From Centipeda felix (GTDB lineage: Bacteria; Bacillota; Negativicutes; Selenomonadales; Selenomonadaceae), in the NCBI RefSeq assembly GCF_900186465.1, contig NZ_LT891956.1:219626-283625 (forward strand): a stretch of 64,000 nt of DNA, given 5' to 3'. Positions 1,810-56,489 of this stretch are shown here, piece after piece. Numbering within the stretch: the stretch's first letter is position 1; each line of letters opens with the position of its first letter. A model generated the notes under the pieces. The model did no database searches, was not told the origin of the DNA, and saw nothing but the letters and a program-made list of their open reading frames with translations. The translations under genes were made by a program, and so were the position numbers.

Positions 1810-4409
1810 TCAAAAAACGTTAAATATACTGTTTTGTATGAGATGGTCTGCCAAAGATAAATTTTCCATAGCGTGGATCAACCTGTTTCCGGCGGCAATT
1901 TCCTGTGTGGCAGATCCCCAATCCTCCGGTATCGGAATTAGCATTTCTTGTATGTGACGAGGCTGTAAATGTTGTTGCACAGAGCCGTATTCATCAAGCA
2001 GCATCAGCGAGCGTGCCGTCGATGAAGAAAAGTATGTTAATAAATAGGCGCGCAGCGTTTTGTCCTGCACTCGGATTCGAATTAAGTCGTCACTGACCAA
2101 ATAGGCCATGGCTAAGTTCTTTGTGGCATAGGTGACTTTTCCGATTGTGCCTGAGCGCGTGATTAAAATATCCCCCTCCTTAATTTTGAGTAATGATCTG
2201 CACTCACGTTGCTGTCTTGTTGCCTTGGAAAAATCAAGCCATTTTACAGTAAAGCGACGTAATTCCAAGGCACCATTTGCCGTCAAATATGGAGTGAGTT
2301 CTGCTGTATTCGTAGGATTATCCACCTTTATTGTTGCAGAATTCCATCGCGGACCCATAAAAATTTTCATACCGGCTTCTAGTTGTCCGATCGTTGTTAC
2401 AGACCAGCCGGGTTTTTCATTATACTCCAACACATGATCGATTGCCCTGTTTAGGCGGGGAGAATAATGTTGGGGATTGAGGTTGAGGTGATCCTTAAGA
2501 TCATTCCTGTGAATAGAGAAAATATACTCAGAAGGGTGTATCGCCGTATTATCTTGAAGGAATGAAGAATATGCCTCGGCAATTTCATCCAGATCTTGAC
2601 TGAGAATACCTGTGCTGTTCCCGTTGTTGTCAACCACGTAAACGGCGTTTCCCTTTGAGTCTTGTCCAATTCTTTGTGATTGTGCCATAAATATTCTATA
2701 ATTATTTATTCCTTTGTGCCCCTTCGAATATTTTTCCAGTATCAGTACGCAAGTCCTTACACCGGTATCCGGTTGAAAGGTATCCTTATGCAGGGTGATA
2801 ATGGCTTTGATATTGCAGTTGTCCAGCAGCCATGAACGATATGCTTCACAGGTAATGTTGTCCAATACTCCTTTTGGTAGAACGATACCCAACCGCCCTC
2901 CTGGCTTCAACCAGTCGATGCAACGCTCCAAAAAAAGAAGTTCCGGGGATTGACGTGATAGGAGGTCATTATCAGATTCGGAAAAAATATAGGAACCATC
3001 CTGTTGTTGTGTATATGTATGTCCAAACTTAAAATTTCTCAAAATATTTCGGTCGGATATTTGGGAATCTGCTTTCTGACCAGAAAATGGCGGGTTTGTC
3101 ACGATGATAGACGGTGCATTTGTTGTATTTGCAAAACAGCGCGATTTAATCCAAGGATCCAGTCGGTCATATTGATCGATAGAGTTTCCCCTCGTCATTC
3201 CTGTTTGTCCATCACCGGTAAGGAGCATTGCGCATTTTGCGATTTTTACCAATCTGGCAGCAATCTCAACAAGGTAGATGCTGTCTTTAATCGTTGTTAA
3301 TTGGCGGTCTCGTGCTGCTGACCCATGTTTTGTAGACATGATCACTTTGCGACGCAAATAACGGAACATAGCTGTGGCAAATCCCCCGCCCCCGCCGGCG
3401 GGGTCTAGTATTCGGTCGCCAATTTCGGGGGCTAACATTTTTACCATCATATTGACGACAAGCCTATTTGTAAAGAATTGACCTTGTTGTCGCTTGAGGT
3501 TGATGTGGGTAAATTGCTCGTATGTTTCTCCCATGAGATCCCAGTCATCTGCGTCATCATTACATGCAGCAAGATTCCACTTTTGTAATATCCCGACAGC
3601 TTCCGCAATACAGTCATTGCCAACGGATATTTTTTCATGGGCATCAAAAATATCCGGATATTGATCTGCATACTCTCTAAAGAGGGTTTGTATCGTGGAA
3701 GCTACTGCGGCTCTTCCTTCTACGGTTTTGAAGTCTTCGTCCGTGATCCAAAAACGTGGATATAGACCGGGACCGGTTTCGTCTTGGATTTTTGCAAGCA
3801 GGATTCGCACCATATCCATCGCTAGATCAAAATCTTCATTCTCCATCCCACGCCCATATAACTTGTTGTGACAAGTTGCTAGGAGAAAGCGTATGTTATG
3901 CGGGCGTTTAAGCTCTTCTTTTTTGGGGATGGCATCGTGTTCAGACTGCCATAATTCGTGATAGAGTGGAAGGGATTGAATTTCTTCTAGCCTTCCGATT
4001 TCTTTGGTTTTGCGATATATATTGATTTGATTGCCGTTTGTCCACACTGCACCTATGGCAGATGTGTTAAATACATAGGAAACAAGCTGATTGTAACCCC
4101 ATCTGTTACATTGGGTTTCTTGCATTCTACAACAAATAGAATATTTCCTTGATCGCCATCTAGTGCGGCTCGTTTATTGTGGTAAACAACAATGTCTGCG
4201 CGAATGTCAGCACCGGTTTCGTCCTGTAAAATCTTTGATCCGCTTTGAATGCTAACTTCTCTGCGGATGATTTCTTTCGGATAAAGATAGTCTTCGTGCA
4301 GAGTGCGGATAAAAGTCTGGCGCACAATTTCCTCTGGTGTAGTTTTTAAGATAGTTCCCGTGAGATAGTCAGAAATCGTATCGCCATAATACATGTTTTC
4401 AGTAGCCAT
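1810..4409 (-). pseudogene. single-chain restriction-modification enzyme (HsdR-N nuclease, N6-adenine methylase, TRD), frameshifted
   Basis: Two overlapping frames together encode about 865 residues. The upstream part (ATG at 4409, behind GAGAGGATTCCT) is an HSDR_N-type nuclease domain with a PD-(D/E)XK pattern (ADIVV, then VVECKKP). The downstream part (to 1810) continues the same domain (GYNQLVSYVFNTSAIG) and then has an N6-adenine methylase with DPAGGGGGF (SAM binding) and TNPPFSG (catalysis). It ends in an HsdS-like target-recognition domain (GDILITRSGTIGKV, IPIPEDW). The frames join at a G4 run (CCCC, 4097-4100); a fifth G would restore one ORF. No separate hsdS or hsdR gene is adjacent, so the intact form would be a type IIG-like enzyme. 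AT-rich relative to the backbone, so probably acquired. The methylase half might still be made from the ATG at 4125. Confidence 0.75.
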
Positions 4410-4558
4410 AGGAATCCTCTCATGCAAAATAGAATTGTCTTTATATTATATAGAATATCATAGATTCCAAAGAAATTAAATAAATTCCATCAGCATACTG
4501 CAGAAGAATTTCGTCACGATGAGATCCCTTCGGGGCGTCTTTTTCTGTGTGAAATTTA

Positions 4559-6586: not shown

Positions 6587-6735
6587 TTGTCTGTGAGCAT
6601 ATTTAGATTATATATACTCTGATTGATAATGTCAACCAGAAAAAGAAAAATATTTTTCAGAACTTGAAAGAAAAGTAATATTGTTTTATTCTTGTCAAAG
6701 CAATATTCTTTTGATGAGAGAGAAAGGTGAGGGGC

Positions 6736-7659
6736 TTGTATCAAAGAGCATTGGGCGAAAATATGTTCCACGACTTTCAAAAGGGTGGCCCGCTCCACGA
6801 CCTGCTCGCGTACGTGCAGAATGATGACACCCTTGATTTGGAATTTCGCGGGGAGTACGCGGCGAATATTTACTATCGCGGCGGCAGCCTCTTCCGCATT
6901 GACCGCAGCGCGACTGGCTATACGCTCACGTTTGATACGAAGTATGATGAGGGGATGGCGGCAAATCCTTCGATCTGCGTGGCAGTCGGACTTATCCCGC
7001 TGTATAAGCATGCGATAGATGTCTGGTTCGCGAAGAATCGGAAGTATGAGCGGGAGTTCCAGCAGGTCGTCGTACGGGAGAATAATCGGCATGGCGCGAT
7101 CTCGCACGCGACGGATTATTATATCGCTGATGTGGAGTATGTCTATCGCGATACAGAGGGGACGAATGCGCGGTTTGATATGGTCGCTGTGAAATGGCCG
7201 TCGACCGCGTCTGCCCGAAAGGACGAGGGAGCACCGACGCTCGCTGTGATCGAGATGAAGTATGGAGATGACGCGCTGGATGGTTCGGCGGGGCTGGTCG
7301 CTCATCTGAATGATGTTCAGGCATTTGTCGACGGCGCAGCGATGCATCAGTTCTGTGCGGATATGGCGAAGGTGTTCCGGCAGAAATGCGAGCTTGGACT
7401 GATTTCGGATATGGCGGAGAAAAAGCATCATATCACGATATCCGAAGAGAACATCGAGCTGATCTTTCTCATCGCGAACCATGATCCGGACAAGACAAGG
7501 CTAAGAGCAGCGGTTGAGCAAATGGCAAATCTTGTTGCACATCAGCCGTATCCGTTCGCCATCAAATTCGCGGCCTCATCCATGATGGGGTATGCACTCT
7601 ATGCCGATCCGATGAAGACCCTTGGGGAGATGCAGGAGATGCTCGAAAAAAAGGCATAG
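6736..7659 (+). CDS. unknown protein with a PD-(D/E)XK-like core (307 aa)
   Basis: Not assigned to a named family. The TTG at 6736 is preferred because AGGTGAGG precedes it at good spacing; a GTG at 6727 and an ATG at 6763 are alternatives. Near the middle, FDMVAVKW followed about 20 residues later by AVIEMKYG gives the D...ExK spacing of PD-(D/E)XK nucleases. The N-terminal part has short beta-rich motifs (YYRGGSLFRIDR), and FLIANHD occurs near the C-terminus. No membrane segment. It stands alone between two repeat copies. A nuclease role is inference from one motif. Confidence 0.6.
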   Translation: MYQRALGENMFHDFQKGGPLHDLLAYVQNDDTLDLEFRGEYAANIYYRGGSLFRIDRSATGYTLTFDTKYDEGMAANPSICVAVGLIPLYKHAIDVWFAKNRKYEREFQQVVVRENNRHGAISHATDYYIADVEYVYRDTEGTNARFDMVAVKWPSTASARKDEGAPTLAVIEMKYGDDALDGSAGLVAHLNDVQAFVDGAAMHQFCADMAKVFRQKCELGLISDMAEKKHHITISEENIELIFLIANHDPDKTRLRAAVEQMANLVAHQPYPFAIKFAASSMMGYALYADPMKTLGEMQEMLEKKA

Positions 7660-7671
7660 CACATACGAAAA

Positions 7672-7708
7672 CGCGCCCCTCCGCGCATGGCGGAGAGGCG
7701 CTCTTTTG
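7672..7708 (+). terminator. rho-independent terminator after the PD-(D/E)XK-like gene
   Basis: GCGCCCCTCCGC, loop GCATG, GCGGAGAGGCGC followed by TCTTTTGTC. The stem is imperfect but GC-rich, 12 bases after the stop codon. Confidence 0.7.
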
Positions 7709-7727
7709 TCTGTGTGTGTAGAGGCTT

Positions 7728-7790
7728 AGGAAGAAGCACTGATAAATTCGACATGACCATCTTGGCATACCGTATGTTTCAGTGATTCCT
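7728..7790 (-). repeat. dispersed inverted-repeat element, short internal-deletion copy
   Basis: Both ends are present (GAAGCACTGATAAATTCG and TTTCAGTGATTCCT) but the interior is cut to about 30 bp (CATGACCATCTTGGCATACC). Confidence 0.7.
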
Positions 7791-7813
7791 ATCTGCAGCG
7801 TTTGCGTATATCA

Positions 7814-8401
7814 CTATTCACTGGCACGAACTTTAATTGAGGTTATCATACCGTTCTTTACCGTAAACCACATTGTCACAGACTCGTTTACATTATATGC
7901 ATATATCGTTTTGTCGAAACGTTTCCGATACTCCTCATTATCTTTTTCAGAAAGCTTCGGGGCCTTATGTCTTTCCGTAGATACACCATCTGCTGTGCCG
8001 TATATTTCGGATAATACAGTTTCTGACATTCCGACACTCACACCATCTGCTGTACTAAAGTCGCCTCTCCCATCTACGGTAATTGAGGTTACGATATAAT
8101 TATCATCCAAATCCCATGCGGTCAATTGAATACTTGCTCCCTTGTAGGAAAGGTCTATTCTATGGTCTGATTGTGACGTATGATACGGCTTTCCAAAAGC
8201 AGCAAGCAGTTTTTTCATAGAATCCCCTACACAGATACCATTGATTGACGTCTGCTCCTTGTATATAGAACAACTTATCGGAATAGCTCCGAGATTCCTT
8301 GTGTATTCCACGGGACGTTGAGCAACACATATAGGACTAATAAATAAGCAGAAAAAGAACACAATGCCTATCTTTTTGAAATATTGTCTTCCGAACATCA
8401 T
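7814..8401 (-). CDS. exported protein of unknown function (195 aa)
   Basis: The start at 8401 has GGAGG six bases upstream. Residues 1-28 are a signal peptide (hydrophobic IGIVFFFCLFISPICVAQ), with a possible cleavage after VAQ. There is no lipobox cysteine at the usual place. Two segments resemble each other: VGDSMKKLLAAFGKP and VGMSETVLSEIYGTA, each a 'G-x-S...L...G' unit as seen in small SmpA/OmlA-like folds. It is AT-richer than the backbone and lies between two repeat copies, suggesting recent arrival. Probably periplasmic or envelope-associated; no specific role can be given. Confidence 0.7.
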   Translation of the reverse strand: MMFGRQYFKKIGIVFFFCLFISPICVAQRPVEYTRNLGAIPISCSIYKEQTSINGICVGDSMKKLLAAFGKPYHTSQSDHRIDLSYKGASIQLTAWDLDDNYIVTSITVDGRGDFSTADGVSVGMSETVLSEIYGTADGVSTERHKAPKLSEKDNEEYRKRFDKTIYAYNVNESVTMWFTVKNGMITSIKVRASE

Positions 8402-8418
8402 CTCATTCCTCCATATTA

Positions 8419-8577
8419 AGGAAGCACTGATAAATTCAGCACCGTCATCTTAGCGCATTCTTTTGCCCTGTCTGTGCCCTCGATCCTCCGCATAGACTCT
8501 GCTATGCGTCCGGTTTGCCTCATTGACAGGAAAAAATCTGCACCAATCCACGGGCCTGTTTATCAGCCCTTCCCTAA
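8419..8577 (-). repeat. dispersed inverted-repeat element, long copy
   Basis: Starts AAGGAAGCACTGATAAATTC and ends TTTATCAGCCCTTCCCTAA. The internal part includes CTATGCGTCCGGTTTG and AAAAAATCTGCACCAATC. Confidence 0.75.
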
Positions 8578-8707
8578 CAATCGGCATTCCATTTCGGTAA
8601 AGGGGCGCTGCACCATGATGTTGCCTCTCTCGTCGTGCTGCTGTTTCCCTCTATTGTAATATTTCGGAGGCCAATCGTGCAACAAAAGAATTTATCAATA
8701 TTTCCTT
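8578..8707. other. short gap with a micro-ORF and half a repeat element
   Basis: On the minus strand an ATG at 8615 behind AGAGAGG opens 17 codons (MVQRPFTEMECRLLGKG) whose last codons and stop come from the repeat at 8419-8577. This could be the stub of a gene truncated by the element. At 8683-8707 one terminus of the same repeat (GAATTTATCAATATTTCCTTA) overlaps the stop codon of the next gene. Confidence 0.35.
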
Positions 8708-9941
8708 AGCTCTCAGAATCCCCCATCCACTCGTCGTCGAAGAGGGGGGCATCCTTGACGAGGGCAACGATTTCCTTGCGCGTTGCCTCGATCTGTTCGG
8801 GTGTGAGGACGGTCGAGAGCGGCTTTGCGAGCAGGGAGCCGATGTAGGCGATGTCCTCCTCGCGCATTCCTCGGGTCGTCGGGTTCGAGGTCGAGAGGCG
8901 CAGGGCGTGGAGGAAGAGTCCCGGATCCATCGTGGGCATGGTGTCGAGTTTGACGCGGATGCCCATCTGTCCGATGACCTTGACCGCCGTGCCGATGTCA
9001 ACGCCCGCCGCCGTGGAGGCGAGGACGAGGTGTGTGTCCGTGCCGCCGCAGAGGACGGACGCGCCGTGGTCGGCGAGGGTGCGCGCGAGCACCTGTGCGT
9101 TCTGCACGACCTGTTCGGCGTAGTTGCGGTAGCGCTCGCTGGCTGCCTCGCGCAGGACGACGCCGAGTGCGGCGAGGTGGTTCATGTGGAGTGCCTCATG
9201 CCCCGTGTTGATGACGGCGGCATCCATGCGCGAGGCGAGCTCCGCCTTCGTGAGGACGACGGCGCCGTCGGGCCCGCGCAGGGAGTCGCGCGTGGAGAAC
9301 GTGACGACATCGGCGAGGGGGACGGGCGAGGGGATGAGTTTGGATGCGACGAGGCCGACGCTCTGGCTGATGTCGACCCAGAGGTAGGCGTCCACGGTCT
9401 GTGCGATCTCATAGAGGATCTGGTAGTCGATCGTGCGCGGGAAGCTGACCGGGGAAAAGATGATGAGCCGCGGCTTTACGCGCTCTGCCTGCGCGCGCAC
9501 TGCTCCCCAGTCGATTTCCTGCGTGCCGGGCTCGATGCCGTAGTTCTCAAAGCAGTAGGAGAGTCCCGCGACGTGATCCTTTTTGCGCAGGTTGAGGGAG
9601 AGTACCATGTCGCCCTCTGCGAGGAGCGCCTGAAAGACGACGCGTGAGGCGGCGACGATGTTGCCGAGGCGGACGATGGCGTGGTCGCTGTGAAAGAGCT
9701 GCTTTGCACGGTCGCGCACGATGGCCTCGAGGTGGAGGCCGCCGGTCGGGGTCTCGTCGCTGCGGTCAAAGAAGCTGTTCGTGAGGATACTGCCCTCAAG
9801 ATACTTTGCGAACGGCGACATGGCGTTCATGTTCGGCATCAGCGAGAGTGTGTAGCGCTGGCGCTGGCGTTCTTCCTGCAGGAGGTTGTAGATCTCGGGG
9901 TCGAAGGCTTCGAGATGATGGACGACTTCTTCGCGTTTCAT
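8706..9941 (-). CDS. serine hydroxymethyltransferase homologue lacking the PLP lysine
   Basis: 411 residues, normal length for SHMT. The ATG at 9941 is chosen because AAGGAG is 8 bases upstream (a TTG at 9947 is too close). Clear SHMT landmarks are LVASKLIPSPVPLADVVT, LRGPDGAVV, and near the C-terminus LRLSTSNPTTRG. In SHMT the cofactor lysine lies in a THKTLRGPRGG motif. Here that site reads STRDSLRGPDGA, so Asp219 replaces lysine, and the HLTHG motif is also changed (DHVAGL). It should not form the usual PLP Schiff base, so glycine/serine interconversion is unlikely. It may be a non-catalytic or repurposed paralogue. The frame is intact over its whole length, which argues against simple decay. 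The stop codon overlaps a repeat-element end. Confidence 0.8.
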   Translation of the reverse strand: MKREEVVHHLEAFDPEIYNLLQEERQRQRYTLSLMPNMNAMSPFAKYLEGSILTNSFFDRSDETPTGGLHLEAIVRDRAKQLFHSDHAIVRLGNIVAASRVVFQALLAEGDMVLSLNLRKKDHVAGLSYCFENYGIEPGTQEIDWGAVRAQAERVKPRLIIFSPVSFPRTIDYQILYEIAQTVDAYLWVDISQSVGLVASKLIPSPVPLADVVTFSTRDSLRGPDGAVVLTKAELASRMDAAVINTGHEALHMNHLAALGVVLREAASERYRNYAEQVVQNAQVLARTLADHGASVLCGGTDTHLVLASTAAGVDIGTAVKVIGQMGIRVKLDTMPTMDPGLFLHALRLSTSNPTTRGMREEDIAYIGSLLAKPLSTVLTPEQIEATRKEIVALVKDAPLFDDEWMGDSES

Positions 9942-10135
9942 GGGCAATTCTCCTTAAAAATCGACAAAGAAAGGATACTGTTGACGTTTTCCATGCCCAC
10001 AGTATACCACAATATTTCCGTTTGGTCACCCACTTTTGACGTTTCTGAATATTGCTATCAGGGAGAGAGGGGGCTGCTATGCGCCCCTTCACTGTGCATA
10101 GCGCGCCCGATGGCGGAGCAGCACCCCGCCGCTCC

Positions 10136-10639
10136 TCAGTGCGGATGGACGACGGAGACGGCGCCATTGCTGCTGATGGCGCGGTATGTGCCGTCGCTGT
10201 AGACCTCGACGAACTCGTAGCCGCCGTGTGCGGCGAGCGAACGTGCGCCCTCCATGCCCTCGGGGAGGGGCTCGCCGCGCTTATAGTGCATGATGATGCC
10301 CCCGGTGATGTTGATGGTGTGCACCTCGTAGGGTGCGCCGAGAAAGCACTGCGCGACGATGCCGATGGGGATGGATGCGATGCTGACGATGTCGGGAAAC
10401 TCCGCGCGGATGGCGTCGACGATGGCGTCGCGCTCTGCCGCGCTCATGGTCGCGCCGCCCGCATCGAGCTTGTGGATGGCGTCGATGTACGCCTTGGAGC
10501 GCGGCTCTTTGAGACGGCGCGCGAGCTGCACGGCGTTTTCCTGCGCCTCTCTCTGCGTCTCTCGGGGGGCGGCGGTCAGGCTCAGGCGGCTTTCCTGCGT
10601 CTGTTCCGTCTGATTTCGGTGGAGTAGTGGTCGCGGCAT
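10136..10639 (-). CDS. unknown protein downstream of the AAA+ ATPase (167 aa)
   Basis: Not recognised. It starts 24 bp after the stop of the AAA+ ATPase gene, in the same direction; GGAACG-type purines precede the ATG at 10639. Residues 1-60 are polar and helical (TQREAQENAVQLARRLKE). Residues 95-165 look like a compact beta-rich domain (YEVHTINITGGIIMHYKRG; YEFVEVYSDGTYRAISSNG). No signal peptide or membrane segment. It is the last gene of the candidate operon 14765-10136, so a role as partner of the ATPase is inferred from position only. Confidence 0.65.
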   Translation of the reverse strand: MPRPLLHRNQTEQTQESRLSLTAAPRETQREAQENAVQLARRLKEPRSKAYIDAIHKLDAGGATMSAAERDAIVDAIRAEFPDIVSIASIPIGIVAQCFLGAPYEVHTINITGGIIMHYKRGEPLPEGMEGARSLAAHGGYEFVEVYSDGTYRAISSNGAVSVVHPH

Positions 10640-10663
10640 GTTCGTTCCTTTCTGTCGGGGGAG

Positions 10664-12238
10664 TTACACCAGTACCTTGCGCGTGCGCATCTCGGCGGAT
10701 TTTTTGAGCTCGGTCTCGCTGCCGATGGGGCGTCCGCTCGCGGGGACGGCACGCTCGCGTCCCCAGTCGCGGATGGCGGCGATTTTTTCCGGCGCGGTCG
10801 CGGAGAGCGGGACGACGTTTTCAAAGGCGCTGCGCAGGTTCTCTGCGCTCAGGCTGAACGCGGGGTTCGCGATGGCGCGGTAGGCGAGGTCGCGGACGGT
10901 GGACTCGAGATCCGCGCCCGTAAAGCCGTCGGTCATTGCGACGAGGGTGTCGGCGAATGCGCCCGCGAAGTCGAGCCCCAGATACTTTCGCATGTAGAGG
11001 TGCAGGATGTCGCGGCGCTCGTCGGCGGTCGGCAGGTCGATGAAGAAGAGCTCGTCGAACCGCCCGCGCCGCAGGAGCTCCGAGGGGAGCATGGAGACGT
11101 CGTTCGCCGTCGCGACGACGAAGACCGGCTTGCGGCACTCCTGCAGCCAGAAGAGGAACTGCCCGACCATGCGCGTGGAAACGCCGCCGTCGTTCGAGCT
11201 GCCCGCGCCCGAGAGTCCCTTTTCGATCTCGTCGATCCAGAGGATGCACGGCGCGACGTTCTCCGCCGTCTGAAGTGCGCTCTGCAGCTGCTGCTCGGTC
11301 TGCCCGACGTAGCTGCCTTGTACGGTCGCAAAGTCGAGGCGGTAGAGCGGGAGCTTCCAGCTGGCGGAGATCGCCTTGGCCGAGAGGGACTTGCCGCAGC
11401 CGGGCACGCCGACGAGCAGGATGCCGCGCGGGGACTTGAGTCCCTTTTCCCGCAGCAGGCTGCGTTTCTCCGCGGTAAAGAGGAGGCGTTTCTCGTCGAG
11501 CCAGTTCCGCAGTCCCGTGAGCCCGCCCACGTCGCGGACGCTCTCGTCGACGGTGATCTTCTCCAGTCCCGAGATGTCGGAAAAGAGGCGATCCTTCGCC
11601 GTGCGCACCTCGTCCATGTCCTCCCGCCGGATGGATTTTTTCGCGATGAGCGCCGCCATGACGTTCTCTGCCTCGATGGCGGTGACGCCGCAGAGGATGG
11701 AGGCCGCCTCGCGGATGTCGGCGTCCGTCCACTCGATCGTGATCTCGCCGCGGTAGTCGTCGATGTAGCCGCGCACGATCTGCTCCATCTCGTCCTCGTC
11801 GGGCAGCGGGAGCTCGAGACGCAGCCCGAGGCGCTGGAGGCGGTTCCAGATGGGGGAGGTGGTGAGCACGATGATCTGCCCGCCCGTCTCGTTCGCGAGG
11901 GTCACGAGGTCGAGGAGCTGCCGCGCGTCGTTCGTGTCGGTCGAGAGGTCGGGCGTCTCGGTCAGGACGAGGGTCGTGTTCGCGCGGTGCTTCATCTGCT
12001 CGCCGATGAAGTCGAGCGCGCCATAGACGGACTTGTCGTCGCTGAGCACCTTGTCCGTGGCGAGGTCGTAGACGCCCTTGGACAGGGTATGGATGCAAAA
12101 GGGTAGGGAGAGCTCCTCTGCGACCTCTTTGAGCAGTGTCAGCGCGCGGGCGCGCTCGACGGTGTGGAGCGTGATAAAGGGGATCCGTGCGATGCCGTAG
12201 CGCGCGAGCAGCTCCTTGCACGTCTGTCGTGCGGTCAT
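10664..12238 (-). CDS. AAA+ ATPase, Ycf46/Vps4-like
   Basis: 524 residues. The N-terminal 240 residues resemble the degenerate ATPase-like half of Ycf46 proteins. The C-terminal AAA+ module has Walker A GVPGCGKS (277-284), Walker B ILWIDEIE (332-339), sensor-1 VATAND (375-380), an arginine-finger region RRGRFDE (390-396), and the lid motif [12 protein letters not shown]+ proteins of this kind use ATP hydrolysis to remodel or thread protein substrates. The ATG at 12238 overlaps the stop of the preceding gene by four bases (ATGA), so the two are translationally coupled. The target is unknown; the nearby membrane protein and two small genes are candidates. Confidence 0.85.
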
Positions 12239-12810
12239 GAGAACGCCTCCGTTTCCAGTACGTTTACCCTGTGGCTGCGCACGAGCGCGCTCATGCGCCC
12301 CGTGCGGTCTGTCTTTGCGGAGGCCTCAAGGGACTCCTGCGTGCGGTCGGCCGCCGTCTGTACGGCAGCGATGGTCTCTTTGCGCGTCGCGGCGGGGAGG
12401 GCGGGGAGATCGGCCGCCGCATAGAGCGTGCGAAATCTGCGCCGCTGGGCGAGGAGTGCCGCGATGGTATCCTGCTCGGCGGATGCGCGCGCGAGGTCGC
12501 GCGAAAATGTGTCGCCGTCCTTCTGGATGCGCGTGTTCAGGGCATCGAGCAGCCGCTGGGTGAACCGCTCGGCGACTCCCGACTGCCACACGAGCGTCCC
12601 CGCGCGCATGGCGTGCACTGCCTCCTCGTCCGCCGTCCCCGCAGCGAATGTCGTTAGGAGCGCCGCCCACTGGGCGTAGGTGCGCGGCGGGGCGATCATG
12701 CGCGTCTCCTGCGCACGGGCGCGGTCGGCGGCTTGTGCGGCGGGGGTTGCTGCGCCGTGCGCTGCCGCATCGCTTGTGGGGATCGCAGCAAACGGATGTT
12801 GCTCGTTCAT
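12235..12810 (-). CDS. unknown helical protein coupled to the AAA+ ATPase (191 aa)
   Basis: Not recognised. The ATG at 12810 has AGGAGG seven bases upstream. Residues 1-45 are alanine-rich and low-complexity (AAHGAATPAAQAADRARAQ). The remainder is predicted to be alpha-helical, with a charged repeat-free helix (ALNTRIQKDGDTFSRDLA) and an Arg-rich stretch (LLAQRRRFRTL). No export signal. Its stop overlaps the ATPase start, a usual sign of stoichiometric partners. Confidence 0.65.
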   Translation of the reverse strand: MNEQHPFAAIPTSDAAAHGAATPAAQAADRARAQETRMIAPPRTYAQWAALLTTFAAGTADEEAVHAMRAGTLVWQSGVAERFTQRLLDALNTRIQKDGDTFSRDLARASAEQDTIAALLAQRRRFRTLYAAADLPALPAATRKETIAAVQTAADRTQESLEASAKTDRTGRMSALVRSHRVNVLETEAFS

Positions 12811-12864
12811 CGTAGGCCTCCTATATCTATATCCTCGGCGAGACACCTGCGGGCGCTGATCTAT

Positions 12865-13031
12865 AGGGAAGCACTGATAAATTCGGCACAACCATCTTGA
12901 CGCATCTTTTTCGCCCGCTTTTCGTTAGCAAATCCTCCACATAGCTCTTGCTATGCGTCCGGTTTGCTGCCTCAATCGGACAAAAAATCTACACCAATCT
13001 GGCAGACCTCATTTTATCAGTGATTCCCTAG
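12865..13031 (-). repeat. dispersed inverted-repeat element, full length, inside the AAA+ cluster
   Basis: Starts AGGGAAGCACTGATAAATTC and ends CATTTTATCAGTGATTCCCT. Very close to the copy at 6422-6586 across its whole length, including CATCTTGACGCATCTTTTT and CAATCTGGCAGACC. It separates the membrane-protein gene from the rest of the cluster. Confidence 0.8.
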
Positions 13032-13049
13032 CCCGTTCATTGTTGCCTC

Positions 13050-14765
13050 CTATATCTGCATCCTGCGGCCGCCCTCGCGGACGGTGCGGAAGGCGGAAAC
13101 GTCCAGTGCCGTGAGGTAATCCAGCGTCTTTTGGCTCTCGGCGTCGAGCGCGCGGTATGCCTCGCGGTAGTCCACGACCTCGGCGAGGAGGCCGCGCACG
13201 ATCTCCGCCCCTGTTTTGCCCTGCTCGGCAAAGTGCTCCTGCAGCTCCTCGCGCTGCGTTTCGAGGGCGCGCTTTGCGCTGCGGTAGTTCAGGTAGATGA
13301 GCACGCCGATGACCGCGCCGATGACGAGCCCGACCGCACCGCCGAGATAGAACCCGAGGACGATGGGGACGATGCCCGCCCACTTGCAGAGCTCCTGCTT
13401 CCCGGTCAGACGCAGCTTTGCCAGCTCGCGGTCGCGCATGGCGTCGTTCCACGCGGCGAACTGCCGCAGGAGCTCCTCCTCGTTCTCGCCGTTTTCCGTC
13501 TCCCCCTCGAACTCTCCGATGCGCAGCGCAATGCTGTGCGGCACGGCGGCGCGGTTCTCCGCGATGTGGTCGCGATAGGCGGAGAGCATCCAGTCCTTGG
13601 ATATGGCGAGCGCCATCTTCTGCGTCGCGACGCTCGCCTGCGCCTCCTTCGGGTTCATGGCGGCGTCGGTCAGGAGCTGCATAAAGTCGCGCCGCTCCTC
13701 GAACGCCTCCTGTTTGAGCTGCATTTCCTTCTTTGCGCGCGTCTCGTCGCCGCCCTCATCCGCGACGAGCTGCTCGAACGTCACCGCTTCGCGCAGGGGC
13801 TGCTCCGCCGCGTCGAAATCCGTCACGAGGCTCGTGAGGACGCGGTCGAGCTCCTGCACCAGCGTGCGCATGGGCGGGTTCTGCATGACGATTTGCTGGA
13901 CGTGCGCGTAAAATTTGCCGTGCAGCTCCGCGCCGGCGAGTGTGGACTTCAGATCGGCGACGGTCGGGCTGTGCTCCTCGAGATAGGGATAGTGGAACGC
14001 GGCGGGCGTCTCGGGCTGCATGAGGGAGAGTGCTTCCTTCCAGCGGCCCTCCTGCGCCTCGACAAAGCCCGGCTGCTCGGAGAGGCGGGCGAGCCATGCG
14101 TCGAGCTGCTGCGCAATCAGCCCCTCCGTGTCCACGCCTAGGAGCCCGCTCGCATACGCATCGACGATGAGGATCGCCTTGCGGTCGAGTGCCGTCTCAT
14201 CCTGACGCATGAGATAGTGCTGCGCCCAGTGCAGGGCAGGGGCACCGCGTCCCGCACGGCGGCAGACGAGGGCAAAGAAGAGCGCCGTCTTCTCCTCGTC
14301 ACGGCGCAGTGCCTCGCGGAGCGCACGCACGGCGATCTCCTCGTGGTCGCTGATCCAGGCGGAGAGGGCGACAAGCGCGGGCGCGAGCCAGTACTCGGGT
14401 GCGCGCAGCATCAGCTCCTCGCCTGCCGCGCGCACCGTCTCCTGCCGCACGATGGCGAGATCGTTCGCCTGCAGGATGCCTTTCGTCGTGCGGCGGATCT
14501 CGGCGTAGTGCCCGTACTTTTGCTCGAGCTCCTGCCGCAGCTTGACGAGACGAGTCTCCGCGAGCTGGGCGCGCGCGGTGAGGCGGTGCGCCTGCACGAA
14601 GGCGTGGAAATCCGCCGTCAGCGCATCGAAATCCTGCTGCAGCGCGTCGACATTCTTGCCGACGGTGATGACGTTGGAATTGGTTGTGTCGATGTACTCA
14701 CCGAGCTCCCGCAGACAGTTCCATATCCCGGAAAGATCCGCCTGCGCAATAATGCGGTCAGCCAT
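13050..14765 (-). CDS. large unknown protein with one hydrophobic hairpin (571 aa)
   Basis: Not recognised. The ATG at 14765 (MADRIIAQADLSGIW) has GGAGGGTACTGC upstream. Residues 1-100 include coiled-coil-like helices (RLVKLRQELEQKYGHYAEI). Residues 130-260 have the composition of helical repeats. Residues near 460-495 are strongly hydrophobic (WAGIVPIVLGFYLGGAVGLV and on), enough for one or two membrane passes, and a further helical tail follows (ALETQREELQEHFAEQ). It probably sits on the inner membrane with most of its mass in the cytoplasm. It is the first gene of the AAA+ cluster and reads in the same direction. Confidence 0.65.
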   Translation of the reverse strand: MADRIIAQADLSGIWNCLRELGEYIDTTNSNVITVGKNVDALQQDFDALTADFHAFVQAHRLTARAQLAETRLVKLRQELEQKYGHYAEIRRTTKGILQANDLAIVRQETVRAAGEELMLRAPEYWLAPALVALSAWISDHEEIAVRALREALRRDEEKTALFFALVCRRAGRGAPALHWAQHYLMRQDETALDRKAILIVDAYASGLLGVDTEGLIAQQLDAWLARLSEQPGFVEAQEGRWKEALSLMQPETPAAFHYPYLEEHSPTVADLKSTLAGAELHGKFYAHVQQIVMQNPPMRTLVQELDRVLTSLVTDFDAAEQPLREAVTFEQLVADEGGDETRAKKEMQLKQEAFEERRDFMQLLTDAAMNPKEAQASVATQKMALAISKDWMLSAYRDHIAENRAAVPHSIALRIGEFEGETENGENEEELLRQFAAWNDAMRDRELAKLRLTGKQELCKWAGIVPIVLGFYLGGAVGLVIGAVIGVLIYLNYRSAKRALETQREELQEHFAEQGKTGAEIVRGLLAEVVDYREAYRALDAESQKTLDYLTALDVSAFRTVREGGRRMQI

Positions 14766-14944
14766 GCAGTACCCTCCTGTTCAGCGATGCATCATATAAT
14801 TTGATTCTCATTATATCATATTGCGAAAAGCGTGAAAAGCCTGTGTATGTGCGAATGAATCCGCAGCAGATCGAACGCTGAACCGTGCACCTGACGAGGC
14901 TGGACGGGATCGCGGCGTACGCGAATGAAATCTGTGAAAAATAA
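14766..14944. other. intergenic, no gene seen
   Basis: Between divergent genes. The first 50 bp are AT-rich and probably contain the promoter of the 571-aa gene. The remainder has no open frame of note. Confidence 0.4.
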
Positions 14945-14973
14945 TTGACACTGCGATATGCCTACGGTATACT
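14945..14973 (+). promoter_or_regulatory. sigma-A promoter for the riboswitch-controlled receptor
   Basis: TTGACA (14945-14950), 17-bp spacer, TATACT (14968-14973), with the riboswitch starting about 19 bases later. Confidence 0.75.
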
Positions 14974-14991
14974 ACGATAGCAAATATAAAT

Positions 14992-15146
14992 AAGCAGGTT
15001 CGGTGCCCCTCGGGGCGTAACAGGGAAATTGGTGCAATGCCGATGCGGTCCCGCCGCCGTAATGCTGAGAATGCCCTATGATGTCACTGGGAAACCGGGA
15101 AGGCAGGGCAACGATGAAGCAGAGCCGGAAGACCTACCGAATCTCG
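14992..15146 (+). promoter_or_regulatory. cobalamin (B12) riboswitch
   Basis: Contains the class-typical elements in order: AGCAGGTTCGGTGCCCC, AACAGGGAAATTGGTG, GCGGTCCCGCCGCCGTAA, a variable arm, ACTGGGAAACCGGGAAGG, and the B12 box near 15125-15140 (AGCCGGAAGACCTACC). It lies in the leader of the TonB-dependent receptor and is followed by intrinsic terminators. It is therefore expected to cut expression by transcription termination when adenosylcobalamin is plentiful. Confidence 0.93.
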
Positions 15147-15181
15147 TACGCCGGTGCGCCCTTGGTGCGCGCCACTGCATC

Positions 15182-15250
15182 CTGCGATGGACAGGACGGC
15201 AGGCTTTTTTCGTGTGAAAATGCAGCCGTCCCTGCCGGGACGGTTTTTTG
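15182..15250 (+). terminator. riboswitch expression platform: tandem terminators
   Basis: The clear terminator is CCGTCCC-TGCC-GGGACGG followed by TTTTTT (15227-15250). A weaker hairpin ahead of it (CCTGC at 15182 pairing with GCAGG, then CTTTTTT) may act as a first stop or as part of the antiterminator exchange. Confidence 0.75.
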
Positions 15251-15293
15251 CGGGCGTACAGCGGATGTATGTGTATGGTATGGAGGAACAGCA

Positions 15294-17480
15294 ATGACAA
15301 AACGGAATTTGGCACTTGCGGTCGCATTGGCGACACTGAGCGCAGCATGGACGGTGCCGGCAGCGGCGCAGGAGGGCGCGGCGGACGTGCACGCATCACC
15401 AGATGAACATACCCTTGGCGAAACCGTTGTGACGGCGACTCGTATCGCAGAGTCACGCATGAAAATCCCTGCTAACGTGACGGTCATCACCGCGAAGGAT
15501 CTTGAAAAAAGGCATGCGTTTAGTCTGCGCGATGCCCTGACACGTGAGGCGGGCATTTACGTTGCACCAACAGCCGAAGTCAAGGATGGTGTCATGCTAC
15601 GCGGATTTTCGGGCGCAGATATCCTCGTCATGTATAATGGGCAGATGCTGAACACTGCCTTTGACGGAGGTGTCAATTGGGACTCCATCCCACTGACCAA
15701 TATTGATCGCATTGAGATCGTGCGTGGCGCCGGATCGTCGCTCTATGGTGGACATGCCGTCGCGGGCATCATCAATATCATCACGAAGAAGCCGACTGCA
15801 TCAGAGGCGACAAAACCTCAGATCCATGGACAGGTCGATCTTCAGAGAGGCAGCAACAATACATGGCAGCGCGGACTTCAGGTCACAGGTGGTGATAAGA
15901 ATATTTCCTTCCGCGTCGGCTATGAGAAGCGTACGTCGGACGGGTGGGTCGGTCATGCCGTAACGGCGGAGGAAGACAGTGGAAGTTATACGCCCGATGC
16001 GACCGGTTCCTTCAGGAGGCTGTCTGATGGCGACTATATTATAGGCAGCCGTGGGGCAAAGAAGAAGGACAGTGAGAATACCTTCGTCGATCTGAACTAT
16101 GCGTTTGACAAGAACCGCTCACTTGGCTACACCTATCTGCATGCCTCGTATCAGTACTCCTATCATGATCCCATCACCTATTTCAGGGATGCCGCCGGGC
16201 TCCCTGTTTTCTCAGGCACTGTCCTTCTGCCAAACGGAAACTATATCAGTGCTTCGCCCGATGATTTTCTTGGCTACTATGGCCAGCGGGAGCAGGATAT
16301 TCACAAACTGCGCTATGAGGATACAAAGAACGGTTTCAAGGCAGGAATTGGCTACAGCAATACTTGGAAGGATGGATACTCCAGTGCTGATGGAGCAACG
16401 GATATTGACTGGACGGGTGCCGGCGACCGTGCGGAGTATCCGGCCAAGAACTATAATGCGGATCTGCAGAAAAAGTGGACGCTTGGCAACAATACACTGC
16501 TTGCCGGATTCTCGTGGATGAAGGATAAAATGCGCTATCGCAGATTCGATCTCCTCCATTGGAAGGATTGGGGCTCGACCTATGGCGCACCGTATCAGCA
16601 GAGCGGCGGTTCTGTGATGTCGTCGGCACTCTTTTTGCAGGATGAGCTGGCACTGGATGCACGCTGGAAACTTCAGCTCGGTATACGCTATGACCGCTTC
16701 GACAAGAAGGACGGGTACTCCTACATTGGAGCCGCACGCAGGGACTACGAGGACACATCGTTCCATGCGTGGAGTCCGAAGTTTGCCGTTAGCTATGAGC
16801 CGCAAAAGGATACAATGCTCTATGTAAGCTATGGAAAATCCTTTAATCCCCCGTCGATCTATCGGCTCTATCGCCGTGCGGGAAACAGTGCGAGCTCTAT
16901 CCAGGCGAACCCGGATCTGACCCCGGAGATCTCCCGTACACTTGAGCTGGGAGTCAAGCAGAAGATCGGTAGGAATACCTCCTATGGACTGACGCTGTTC
17001 CGCGTGGACACGGAGGACAAGATTGCGATTGCAAAGAGGAATAACGTGCGTGCCTACTATAATCTGAACGAAGCGATGGTCAAGGGGGCGGAGTTTGAAC
17101 TGAAACACCGTTTTCATCGTGACTGGCGTGCGTATTTTAACTATACCTTTGAGTCCGGTGAGTATACGAGTGGCGGCAAGACCGAGCGTGACTGGGATCT
17201 GCCAAAACACATGATGCGGTTTGGTATCGAATATAATCGTAATAAATTTAACGGCGTACTCGATGCCCAGTACATTGCCGCGCGTCAGGGCGCGGACAGC
17301 GTTACGGGAGAGTATGGCTCGGAAGACAGTTACTTCGTGACCAATTTGTATCTCAATTACAAGCTCAATGAGAACGTTAAAATGCAGTTCGGCATTGAGA
17401 ACCTCTTTAACCGCAAATACTATGCAGGTGAAGCGGCAAACGAGAGAACCTACACCTTTGGTACAACATATTCGTTCTAG
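15294..17480 (+). CDS. btuB: TonB-dependent outer-membrane receptor, probably for cobalamin (BtuB-like)
   Basis: 728 residues. The ATG at 15294 is used, with GGAGG seven bases upstream; longer readings would start inside the riboswitch. Signal peptide residues 1-25 (LALAVALATLSAAWTVPAAA). A TonB-box-like segment GETVVTATR follows, then the plug domain (NVTVITAKDLEKRHAFSLRD, MLRGFSGADILV, IEIVRGAGSSLYGGHAVAGI). The beta-barrel ends with an aromatic C-terminal strand (ERTYTFGTTYSF). The family moves large substrates across the outer membrane using TonB energy. Cobalamin or a corrinoid is inferred from the riboswitch. No btuFCD or tonB genes are adjacent, so those partners must be elsewhere. Confidence 0.9.
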   Translation: MTKRNLALAVALATLSAAWTVPAAAQEGAADVHASPDEHTLGETVVTATRIAESRMKIPANVTVITAKDLEKRHAFSLRDALTREAGIYVAPTAEVKDGVMLRGFSGADILVMYNGQMLNTAFDGGVNWDSIPLTNIDRIEIVRGAGSSLYGGHAVAGIINIITKKPTASEATKPQIHGQVDLQRGSNNTWQRGLQVTGGDKNISFRVGYEKRTSDGWVGHAVTAEEDSGSYTPDATGSFRRLSDGDYIIGSRGAKKKDSENTFVDLNYAFDKNRSLGYTYLHASYQYSYHDPITYFRDAAGLPVFSGTVLLPNGNYISASPDDFLGYYGQREQDIHKLRYEDTKNGFKAGIGYSNTWKDGYSSADGATDIDWTGAGDRAEYPAKNYNADLQKKWTLGNNTLLAGFSWMKDKMRYRRFDLLHWKDWGSTYGAPYQQSGGSVMSSALFLQDELALDARWKLQLGIRYDRFDKKDGYSYIGAARRDYEDTSFHAWSPKFAVSYEPQKDTMLYVSYGKSFNPPSIYRLYRRAGNSASSIQANPDLTPEISRTLELGVKQKIGRNTSYGLTLFRVDTEDKIAIAKRNNVRAYYNLNEAMVKGAEFELKHRFHRDWRAYFNYTFESGEYTSGGKTERDWDLPKHMMRFGIEYNRNKFNGVLDAQYIAARQGADSVTGEYGSEDSYFVTNLYLNYKLNENVKMQFGIENLFNRKYYAGEAANERTYTFGTTYSF

Positions 17481-17525
17481 ATTTTTAAGGAATTGCGCCT
17501 GTTGAAGGATGAATAGAGGAACATA

Positions 17526-17572
17526 GAAAAAGCTGCTGCACGAGGAGATACTTCGTGCGGCAGCTTTTTCTA
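17526..17572. terminator. bidirectional terminator between receptor and SLC13 gene
   Basis: GAAAAAGCTGCTGCACGAGG, loop, then CTTCGTGCGGCAGCTTTTTC. A long stem with A and T tracts on the two sides serves both convergent genes. Confidence 0.85.
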
Positions 17573-17587
17573 TGCAATTTTGGCGTG

Positions 17588-18847
17588 TCAGAACGGCCAG
17601 ACGAGGGGGATGATGAGGACGCAGACGATGAGGGAGAGGAGGACGAGCGGAAGGCCGATTTTGACGTAGTCCATGAAGCGGAACTGTCCCGCGGCAAGGA
17701 CGAGCGTGTTCGGCGGGGTCGCGACCGGTGTGGTGAACGCGCAGGAGGCGGCGATGCCGATGGCCATAACGATCGGGTACGGCTCCGCGCCGATGGTCTG
17801 CGCGATGGAGATGGCGATGGGGGCGAGGAGTGCCGCCGCCGCCGTGTTGGACATGAACTGGGTCAGCCCGCACGAGAGGATGAACATCGCCGTGATGATG
17901 AGCATCGGCGAGGGGGCATCGCCCATGAGCCCGACGACAACATTCGCGATGAGCTGCCCCGCGCCGCTGCTCTCCATGGCATTGGCGAGCGGGAGCATCC
18001 CCGCAAAGAGGAAGATCGTTGTCCAGTCGATGCCGCGATACGCCTGCTTTTCTGTCAGGCAGCCCGTCAGGACACAGGCGAGTGCGCCGATGATGGCGAT
18101 GGTCTCCATGTCGACGCCGATGCTCTTTTCGAGCACCATGGCGAGGACGACGGCGATGAGGATGACGGCGCAGATGACCATTTTGCGCGGATCGCTTTTC
18201 TCCGCCTCCGACTCCTCGGAGACACTCTCCAGTGCGAGGTGACGCGGACAGAGATGGCGGCCGATCGTGAGCATGTAGATCATGCCCGTGAGGGAGAGCG
18301 GGATGCCGATCCATGCGAATTCAAAGAAGCCAAAGGGGCGCAGATGCGCCGTCTCAAGGGTCGCACTCATGAGGATGTTCGGCGGCGTGCCGATCATCGT
18401 GATCGTGCCGCCGACGTTCGCGGCGATGGCGAGCGCCATAAGCTGCGGCGAGACGGGGATCTGTGCCGTGCGGCAGATCTGGATGACGACGGGCATCAGA
18501 CACGCGACGGTCGCCGTGTTCGAGGAGACCGACGAGAGGATGATTGTGATGAGCATGAGGGCGGCCATCAGCGCGCGCTCGTTTGTGCCTGAGCGCCTGA
18601 CGACGGCGATGCCGATCTGCTGTGCGAGTCCCGTCTGGAACATCGCTGCGCCGATGATGAACATGCCCGCAAAGAGGACGACGGTGGGGTTCGACAGCCC
18701 GGCAAAGACTTGTGTCGGCGTCAGCACACCGAGGAGCCCGAGGACGATTGCCGCACTCATCGCTGTGACGGCGAGCGGAATGACCTCGGTCGCAAAGAGC
18801 ACCGCCGCAGCGGCGAGGACGATGAGCGTCAGTGTTGCCTGATCCAT
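17588..18847 (-). CDS. SLC13/DASS-family transporter
   Basis: 419 residues with about 11-12 membrane segments. Both halves carry the family's signature hairpin regions: SSVSSNTATVACLMPVV and MIGTPPN in the first, FMSNTAAAALLAPIAIS and TPVATPPNTLV in the second. Members import di- and tricarboxylates or sulfate, usually with sodium. The SNT motifs bind sodium and substrate carboxylates. A hydrophilic loop near residues 210-225 (SVSEESEAEKSDPRK) separates the halves. The substrate cannot be decided from sequence. Monocistronic, convergent with the receptor gene. Confidence 0.85.
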   Translation of the reverse strand: MDQATLTLIVLAAAAVLFATEVIPLAVTAMSAAIVLGLLGVLTPTQVFAGLSNPTVVLFAGMFIIGAAMFQTGLAQQIGIAVVRRSGTNERALMAALMLITIILSSVSSNTATVACLMPVVIQICRTAQIPVSPQLMALAIAANVGGTITMIGTPPNILMSATLETAHLRPFGFFEFAWIGIPLSLTGMIYMLTIGRHLCPRHLALESVSEESEAEKSDPRKMVICAVILIAVVLAMVLEKSIGVDMETIAIIGALACVLTGCLTEKQAYRGIDWTTIFLFAGMLPLANAMESSGAGQLIANVVVGLMGDAPSPMLIITAMFILSCGLTQFMSNTAAAALLAPIAISIAQTIGAEPYPIVMAIGIAASCAFTTPVATPPNTLVLAAGQFRFMDYVKIGLPLVLLSLIVCVLIIPLVWPF

Positions 18848-18983
18848 AGATTTTTCTCCATTCTCAATCAGTTCAGTTCTTCCTTGGCATGATTCCTGTC
18901 ATGCTCGTATCTGTATGATTTGGTGTAATTCGCGATAAAGTGGCGCATACCTGCTGTCGGACGCGGGTAAAATACACACGGCG

Positions 18984-19232
18984 TTATGTGTCGTGCGCCG
19001 TATTGATTCGCTCAAACCGATACCTCTGTGCGGCACCGGGGTATTTCATGCGGTCCACCTCGCTCAGGAACATCGCGAGCGGGCGCGCGTAGATGCCGTA
19101 TGTCCCGTAGAGTGCCTGATAGATGACGAGCATTTCGCCCGTTTCCGTGTGCTCAGCCACAGTCTCAATGCGGTAGAGCTTCCCTTTGAAGTGGCGCCAG
19201 ATCTCGCCGTGTTTTGGTGGTTCGCGCGTCAT
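18984..19232 (-). CDS. DUF1653 protein
   Basis: 82 residues. It matches the DUF1653 pattern: [37 protein letters not shown], and a late F...V-DR-KYPG. The start at 19232 has GAGGAAACG upstream. Family members are small, soluble, widespread and of unknown role. Short and apparently complete. Confidence 0.8.
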
Positions 19233-56416: not shown

Positions 56417-56489
56417 TACAATACCCCCAAAAGTTAGATTCCTTAAGTCTAACTTTTGGGGGGCAGGTCAGAGGAAGGGGGGATCGGTG

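Follow-up and report, generated by a model that had tools for sequence, protein, structure and literature searches.

An SHMT-derived protein family without the PLP lysine, encoded mostly beside organic-anion permeases in Selenomonadaceae

Paralogues of PLP enzymes that lack the PLP lysine are a known kind of protein; the new element in the case described here is the adjacency to a permease gene. In Plasmodium falciparum, an SHMT homologue named PfSHMTm, in which 16 of 21 active-site residues are missing, coexists with a functional SHMT; it was reported to be inactive as a recombinant protein and was proposed to form mixed dimers with SHMT and to regulate it (PMC3014972). PfSHMTm differs from the protein described below in that it is 18% identical to the SHMT of its own organism and carries a putative mitochondrial tag, and no permease link is mentioned in the passages that describe it (PMC3014972). 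LCB1 (SPTLC1), a paralogue of the PLP-binding LCB2 that has no PLP lysine, is kept for catalysis and regulation and has been considered to form one active site jointly with LCB2 (PMC3794620), whereas the family described here has lost the shared-site residues.

On the transport side, the permease upstream of the gene considered here belongs to the group of VcINDY-type DASS/SLC13 permeases. Nothing among the literature matches listed described an SHMT-like partner gene of a DASS permease, an SHMT-like protein encoded next to a permease, or a pseudo-SHMT from Selenomonas. A link between INDY transporters and pyridoxal kinase was also looked for, and the term pyridoxal kinase was absent from the best 8 of 69 literature matches.

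The window, that is, the whole stretch of 64,000 nucleotides of Centipeda felix DNA that was analyzed, contains the gene for one protein of a monophyletic family that derives from SHMT and that was seen, in this analysis, only in Selenomonadaceae. The PLP lysine is missing from every member, together with the phosphate-binding glycines and a large part of the folate site, and most members are encoded directly beside an organic-anion permease. We infer that these proteins neither carry out SHMT turnover nor hold PLP covalently.

The SHMT-like gene and its altered active site

The SHMT-like gene (positions 8706-9941, minus strand, ATG to TAA) encodes a protein of 411 residues, member A of the family. 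The frame is intact, a 100% identical protein is encoded on contig 14 of the genome assembly (G000), and a ribosome-binding site, AAGGAG (9950-9955, minus strand), lies 8 nt 5' of the ATG; the site also occurs in the S. flueggei locus (L033). The G+C content is 0.641 overall and 0.852 at third positions. The Pfam SHMT model, PF00464, matched the protein at 7e-63 with 213 bits, above the curated cut-off of 27, but with the NCBIfam SHMT model, PRK00011, the score of 241 bits fell below the cut-off of 335. The SHMT motifs LIPSPVPLADVVT, LRGPDG and TTRG are present, and the segment that reads TTHKTLRGPRG in the GlyA of the same genome reads STRDSLRGPDG in the window protein. The THK position is occupied by T217-R218-D219 (ACG CGC GAC, 9285-9293, minus strand), with D219 (GAC, 9285-9287, minus strand) in place of the PLP lysine. 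The initial annotation, made from the sequence alone, had described a full-length SHMT framework in which THK is changed to TRD. This description was confirmed, on the minus strand, and the lysine replacement is real, but many further altered catalytic residues had been missed and the strand had not been stated.

The SHMT fold of the window protein is intact according to an AlphaFold2 model (14 rows; mean pLDDT 75.5, pTM 0.80). When the model was compared with solved structures, the best rows were SHMTs, including 4n0w with a Z score of 36.0 and an rmsd of 2.9 over 354 residues. The weak parts of the model are residues 30-41, 57-66, 353-355 and 399-411, of which the first two align with active-site stretches of GlyA.

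A search for a canonical glyA elsewhere in the genome had been proposed, and one was found. The assembly (2.40 Mb, 17 contigs, completeness 100) contains two SHMT-family genes: the canonical glyA at G000:C17:573054-574187, with 594.8 bits in the own-genome search, and the SHMT-like gene, with 212.3 bits, which is thereby ruled out as the sole SHMT gene of the genome. The GlyA protein (locus L029) carries THK and shares 33% identity with the window protein. Each of the 14 genomes of the genus has a GlyA, with 33-35% identity to the window protein.

Residues were counted in an alignment of 70 distinct family members with four GlyA sequences, and 20 further members were read separately. In the lysine column the 70 members have Asp in 64, Glu in 2, Ala in 1, Gly in 1 and a gap in 2; the two gapped rows have AYVL at that place, without lysine. 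The 20 further members have Asp in 19 and Asn in 1. Lysine is therefore found in 0 of 90 distinct orthologues and paralogues and Asp in 83. The initial annotation had named two findings that would speak against its reading, namely orthologues with lysine at this site and the absence of any other glyA with proven SHMT activity from this gene; neither was encountered.

Like GlyA (PF00464, PRK00011), the window protein has kept the fold, the full length and the arginine of TTRG, which is found in 70 of 70 members. Two further residues are invariant in all 70: D190 (9372-9374, minus strand), the equivalent of SHMT D200 (E. coli numbering), which is the partner of the pyridine nitrogen, and R348 (8898-8900, minus strand), the equivalent of the substrate-carboxylate arginine R363. 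The equivalent of the stacking histidine, H123, is kept in 57 of 70. Unlike GlyA, the window protein and most of the family lack the phosphate glycines, Tyr64/65, His203, His228 and the folate Asn, and they have a shortened active-site loop and a C-terminal EW motif. Among the PLP-phosphate and folate positions (E. coli numbering), the equivalents of G98, G262 and G263 are kept in 0 of 70 and Tyr55 in 10 of 70, and neither glycine of the G262-G263 pair is present in any of the 90. Tyr65 is kept in 1 of 70, with an alignment gap there in the other 20. His203 has become Gln in 67 of 70, and the window protein has eight residues fewer in the stretch that follows the stacking histidine. In SHMT, Tyr65 and the GG pair (G262-G263) are lent by one subunit to the active site of its partner. 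The position of the folate-site Asn, N347, is occupied in the window protein by K331 (8949-8951, minus strand); it is Lys in 67 of 70 members and Asn in none, and the earlier suggestion of a folate-binding role is not supported by this change.

New residues have become fixed as well. The family has 43 positions with a weighted conservation of 85% or more for a residue unlike that of the four GlyA sequences; these include S33, P36, P43, R91, R119, K120, W188, Q193, D219, N254, K331, S350 and W405. The pair R119-K120 (9582-9587, minus strand), which is Thr-Asp in GlyA, is family-specific with a weighted conservation of 1.00 and immediately precedes the shortened active-site loop. W405 (8727-8729, minus strand) lies in the C-terminal EW motif, which is absent from the GlyA rows and common to five lysine-bearing relatives described below. 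We also asked whether the former active site, taken together, is the best-conserved region of the protein. This was not supported: the conservation of its 21 positions as a set was not significantly above the rest (p 0.18), and a pocket preserved in its entirety is accordingly not supported either. Some of these positions are invariant and some are free.

Spread, constraint and lysine-bearing relatives

All 14 genomes of the genus have an orthologue of A, at 71-100% identity, and 12 of the 14 also have a paralogue, B, at 54-58% identity. The named relatives are Selenomonas and Centipeda contigs (Selenomonadaceae, class Negativicutes, according to NCBI). Family members occur in 89 of the 189 Selenomonadaceae genomes and 16 of the 30 genera (best E below 1e-150, counted from the search table), many of the 189 genomes being incomplete, so that absences are soft. 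The score gap to GlyA is wide, with members at 535 bits or more and GlyA at 337 or less. No outside match reached family scores in an order search, which comprised the same 189 genomes, or in a class search of 380; the best match outside the bacterial family scored 380.6 bits, and the lowest member, a shortened one, 535.1 bits. In the tree the lysine-less family forms one clade of 30 rows with a support of 100/100. Short remnants of a further SHMT-like copy, with one stop each, were seen between B and A in two genomes, at G010:C18:19460-19642 and G006:C16:216099-216275.

For A, the median pairwise omega (Nei-Gojobori) was 0.152 over 91 pairs of 14 genes; the corresponding medians were 0.218 for paralogue B (66 pairs of 12 genes) and 0.085 for GlyA (6 pairs of 4 genes). 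Gene A is under purifying selection and is less tightly constrained than GlyA. A loss of lysine that is common to the family, combined with purifying selection, fits a pseudoenzyme, and another reaction may still be catalyzed. The possibility was considered that the gene is a decaying relic of a duplicated glyA, or that there is a sequencing error at the lysine codon. Although many catalytic residues have been lost, the gene is of full length and has a ribosome-binding site, it is present throughout the genus and in 89 of 189 genomes of the family, its omega is low, and the 43 positions are conserved yet unlike GlyA. The relic is refuted by these observations, and a sequencing error or recent mutation is ruled out by the absence of lysine from all 90 members. 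The loss of the lysine is old and common to the family. Selection for another role, as the initial annotation had suggested, is supported by the missing lysine, the low omega and the normal GlyA that exists alongside.

The class search gave five matches above GlyA outside the bacterial family, from four genomes (L109-L113), all with the lysine; a sixth, L114, was an ordinary GlyA. Some of these genomes have further, lower-scoring SHMT-type matches, of which one, in L109, was read. These lysine-bearing paralogues of the same class keep S35, E57, H126, D200, H203, K229 and R363, and G262 in 5 of 5. All five carry the changes Y55N, Y64F, Y65V and G98A, and four also have H228Q. Several fixed positions of the lysine-less family recur in them, as do the C-terminal EW (5 of 5), an SP pair (5 of 5) and a WVD motif (4 of 5). 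In the tree they form a group of five rows with a support of 98/90, the nearest group to the lysine-less family, and the mean distance to that family is 3.21 for the lysine-bearing group and 3.67 for GlyA. When a sample of 398 genomes of the phylum was searched with a profile of the lysine-bearing group, there were six matches (E up to 1e-160), and the five that were read, with L116 left out, were all ordinary THK GlyA.

For four of the five lysine-bearing genes, an amino-acid or dicarboxylate symporter gene (SDF or GltS) is found less than 2 kb away. In L109 and L110 the nearby symporter is SDF, with a gene for an Asp/Glu racemase also in the neighborhood; L112 and L113 are near GltS, L113 also having HutD, formiminotransferase and FolD genes and L112 a HutD-like ORF recognized by eye. 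In L111 no adjoining permease was visible by eye. The simplest reading of these sequences is that GlyA gave rise to an altered lysine-bearing paralogue near symporters and that the lysine was lost afterwards, and the lysine-bearing relatives may show the stage that preceded the loss. The tree has no outgroup beyond GlyA, and this descent rests on distance, motifs and neighbors rather than on a rooted test.

Two other features were seen at these loci. L109 12871-17602 contains a row of genes for a GntP-family transporter close to DsdX, a D-serine ammonia-lyase, a divergent third SHMT with STTKTFCGP and, by eye, a RidA-like protein, possibly a cluster for D-serine use. A DUF3870 gene lies directly 5' of the lysine-bearing paralogue at L109 8440-8778 (Pfam match) and at L111 9169-9498 (by eye).

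The partly altered active site of the lysine-bearing relatives also bears on the possibility that PLP is still held by the family, either without a covalent bond or by a lysine at another place (K120 or K331), in a modified SHMT-like or aldolase reaction. This would agree with the invariant D190, the stacking histidine in 57 of 70, Lys at the K331 position in 67 of 70 and the fixed K120. However, the phosphate site is gone, with G98, G262 and G263 absent from all 70 and Tyr55 from all but 10, and the stretch after the stacking histidine has been shortened by eight residues in the window protein; retention of PLP is quite unlikely.

The adjoining permease

The neighbors were read in a first set of loci that was chosen before any neighbors were known. 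It comprises 28 loci (7 named contigs, 20 stretches from other genera and the window) with 35 family genes. Among these loci, in which most neighbors are unannotated, the permease was the sole same-strand neighbor common across genera; within the genus and in some small sets, additional flanking genes were common too. The permease gene is directly adjacent to 29 of the 35 genes, with gaps of 12-400 bp, and it precedes the SHMT-like gene in all of them except L060, where it follows. Four A genes lie directly behind paralogue B, in the order permease-B-A, and no transporter adjoins the window copy or the second of the two copies in L074. In a second set of 20 loci, the permease was adjacent in 17, with gaps of -37 to 467 bp; an MFS_2 transporter adjoins the SHMT-like gene in L136 (149 bp) and L137 (190 bp), and a flavodoxin, with no transporter, in L138. 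In total, 46 of 55 genes have a same-strand DASS or CitMHS-like permease as direct neighbor, 48 of 55 have any transporter there, and 52 of 55 are transporter-linked if the four permease-B-A genes are included; the 55 loci are related to one another and represent far fewer independent events. L038 and L039 show the order permease-B-permease-A, that is, two successive pairs of permease and SHMT-like gene, the permeases of L038 being partly masked and the frame of the second permease of L039 being split. Upstream of the MFS_2 transporter, a cytidylate-kinase-like protein (PF13189) is encoded at L136 6120-6716, and L137 has a similar ORF by eye.

The three permease models gave no match in the flanks of 12 canonical glyA loci, flanks that were mostly 1.5 kb, with one shorter, two of the 12 loci being the same gene. 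The neighborhood thus described bears on the suggestion of the initial annotation that the protein is a partner of GlyA, taken here as a dead subunit that would form mixed dimers and regulate the enzyme. GlyA is present in every genome of the genus, and there are precedents in PfSHMTm (PMC3014972) and in LCB1/LCB2 of serine palmitoyltransferase (PMC3794620). Against this, the conserved neighbor is a permease and not glyA, and the residues lent to the active site of the partner have been lost (G262 and G263 in all 90, Tyr65 in 69 of 70). This loss speaks against a catalytic partner, so that an LCB1-like role is disfavored, and a GlyA partner subunit, which could still be a purely regulatory one, is very unlikely.

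The adjoining permeases are of several kinds: a DASS permease of 419 residues, a longer DASS type, a divergent CitMHS-like permease (about 470 residues) and MFS_2. The 419-residue DASS permease matched TIGR00785 with 225.5 bits (cut-off 198.6) and the VcINDY entry at 1.9e-36, and the longer type scored 294.5 bits. The CitMHS-like label is based on weak Pfam scores of 33.1, 28.8, 16.9, 31.0 and 26.6 bits, with none for L069, and profile comparison gave no significant link between the DASS and CitMHS-like permeases. Among the tree rows for which the neighbors were read, the short DASS permease accompanies most early branches and the genus, and the longer DASS and most CitMHS-like types accompany nested branches; the two MFS_2-linked copies are absent from the tree. 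Because the type of permease differs by branch, permeases appear to have been exchanged while the link itself held across permease types.

In the window, the DASS/SLC13-type organic-anion permease (17588-18847, minus strand, 419 residues), which is the usual direct upstream neighbor of the family, is found 7640 bp upstream of the SHMT-like gene (start 9941), on the same strand. Between the two lies a block (10054-17554) with an AAA ATPase and unknown genes on the minus strand and a TonB-dependent receptor on the plus strand; three of its proteins have no Pfam match. This block is absent between the two genes in S. flueggei L033, where the permease and the SHMT-like gene are separated by 400 bp and the SHMT-like protein is 92-93% identical. 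The matching blocks of the two sequences end at window positions 17555 and 10053, and matching continues outward from there, to 19232 on one side and, with two interruptions, to 4671 on the other. The DNA identity to S. flueggei is 98.8% for the permease (window 17555-19232 versus L033 5950-7627), 88.5% for the stretch with the SHMT-like gene and 95.3% for the downstream block. From these values, the window permease may have been exchanged recently.

Other observations concern the same DNA. The two interruptions, at about 6730-7650 and 7718-8708, hold ORFs of 310 residues (plus strand) and 195 residues (minus strand) without a Pfam match, and both stretches are missing here in L033. Within the L033 spacer between the permease and the SHMT-like gene, 47 bp (7642-7688) recur at window 56423-56469 with 93.6% identity and are perhaps a remnant of an insertion element. 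Type I restriction-like genes occupy window 1810-4427 on the minus strand; one protein combines an N6-methylase with a specificity-type domain at its C terminus, and a short ORF resembling HsdR-N overlaps the start of the N6-methylase ORF.

Possible function and its meaning

The reading that we favor, at a probability of roughly 0.4, is that the window protein is a PLP-free, SHMT-derived cytosolic ligand-binding partner of the permease, probably a ligand sensor. The rebuilt pocket would consist of the invariant D190 and R348 together with the new residues R119, K120, Q193, D219 and K331; an arginine, an aspartate and new basic residues would suit it to a carboxylic acid. It would bind the imported organic acid, or a product of that acid, and ligand binding would then set the activity, the stability or the expression of the permease. 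The different permease families that adjoin the gene argue against a contact surface specific to one permease, and a role that holds across permease types is better fitted by a sensor of the imported substrate than by a lid fitted to one transporter. A more far-reaching version, in which the fold of a PLP enzyme has become a cofactor-free intracellular receptor that reads an imported acid in the old amino-acid pocket, controls the transporter and has been paired successively with different permease families, is doubtful but possible.

The main alternative is a PLP-independent enzyme in which Asp219, His123 and Lys120 are used in another reaction on the imported organic acid. Such an enzyme would also explain the invariance of D190 and R348, the H123 equivalent in 57 of 70, the aspartate at D219 in 64 of 70 and the fixed R119 and K120. 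Furthermore, it predicts the same gene order as the one observed, since a permease adjoins the genes of uptake-and-use operons as well, and amino-acid symporters, racemases and genes for the use of D-serine or histidine are found near the lysine-bearing relatives. However, D219 is replaced by Glu, Ala, Gly or Asn in single members, unlike a catalytic residue, and across genera no further gene is common beside the module. To our knowledge, a PLP-free enzyme on the SHMT fold has no precedent. We regard such an enzyme as less likely than the sensor, although the data here fit either reading.

A transport-regulatory module made of such a receptor and a permease, if the sensor reading is true, was not met among the literature matches listed. 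On a Pfam match alone the protein would be filed as an SHMT, and a second glyA could be wrongly included in one-carbon models of these bacteria. A candidate for the stage before the loss survives in related bacteria, where the lysine is kept and Tyr55, Tyr65 and mostly His228 are changed. If the permease link is functional, the family would show a route from a paralogue of a PLP enzyme to a transport partner, and the steps from enzyme to non-enzyme would be open to direct test on purified proteins.
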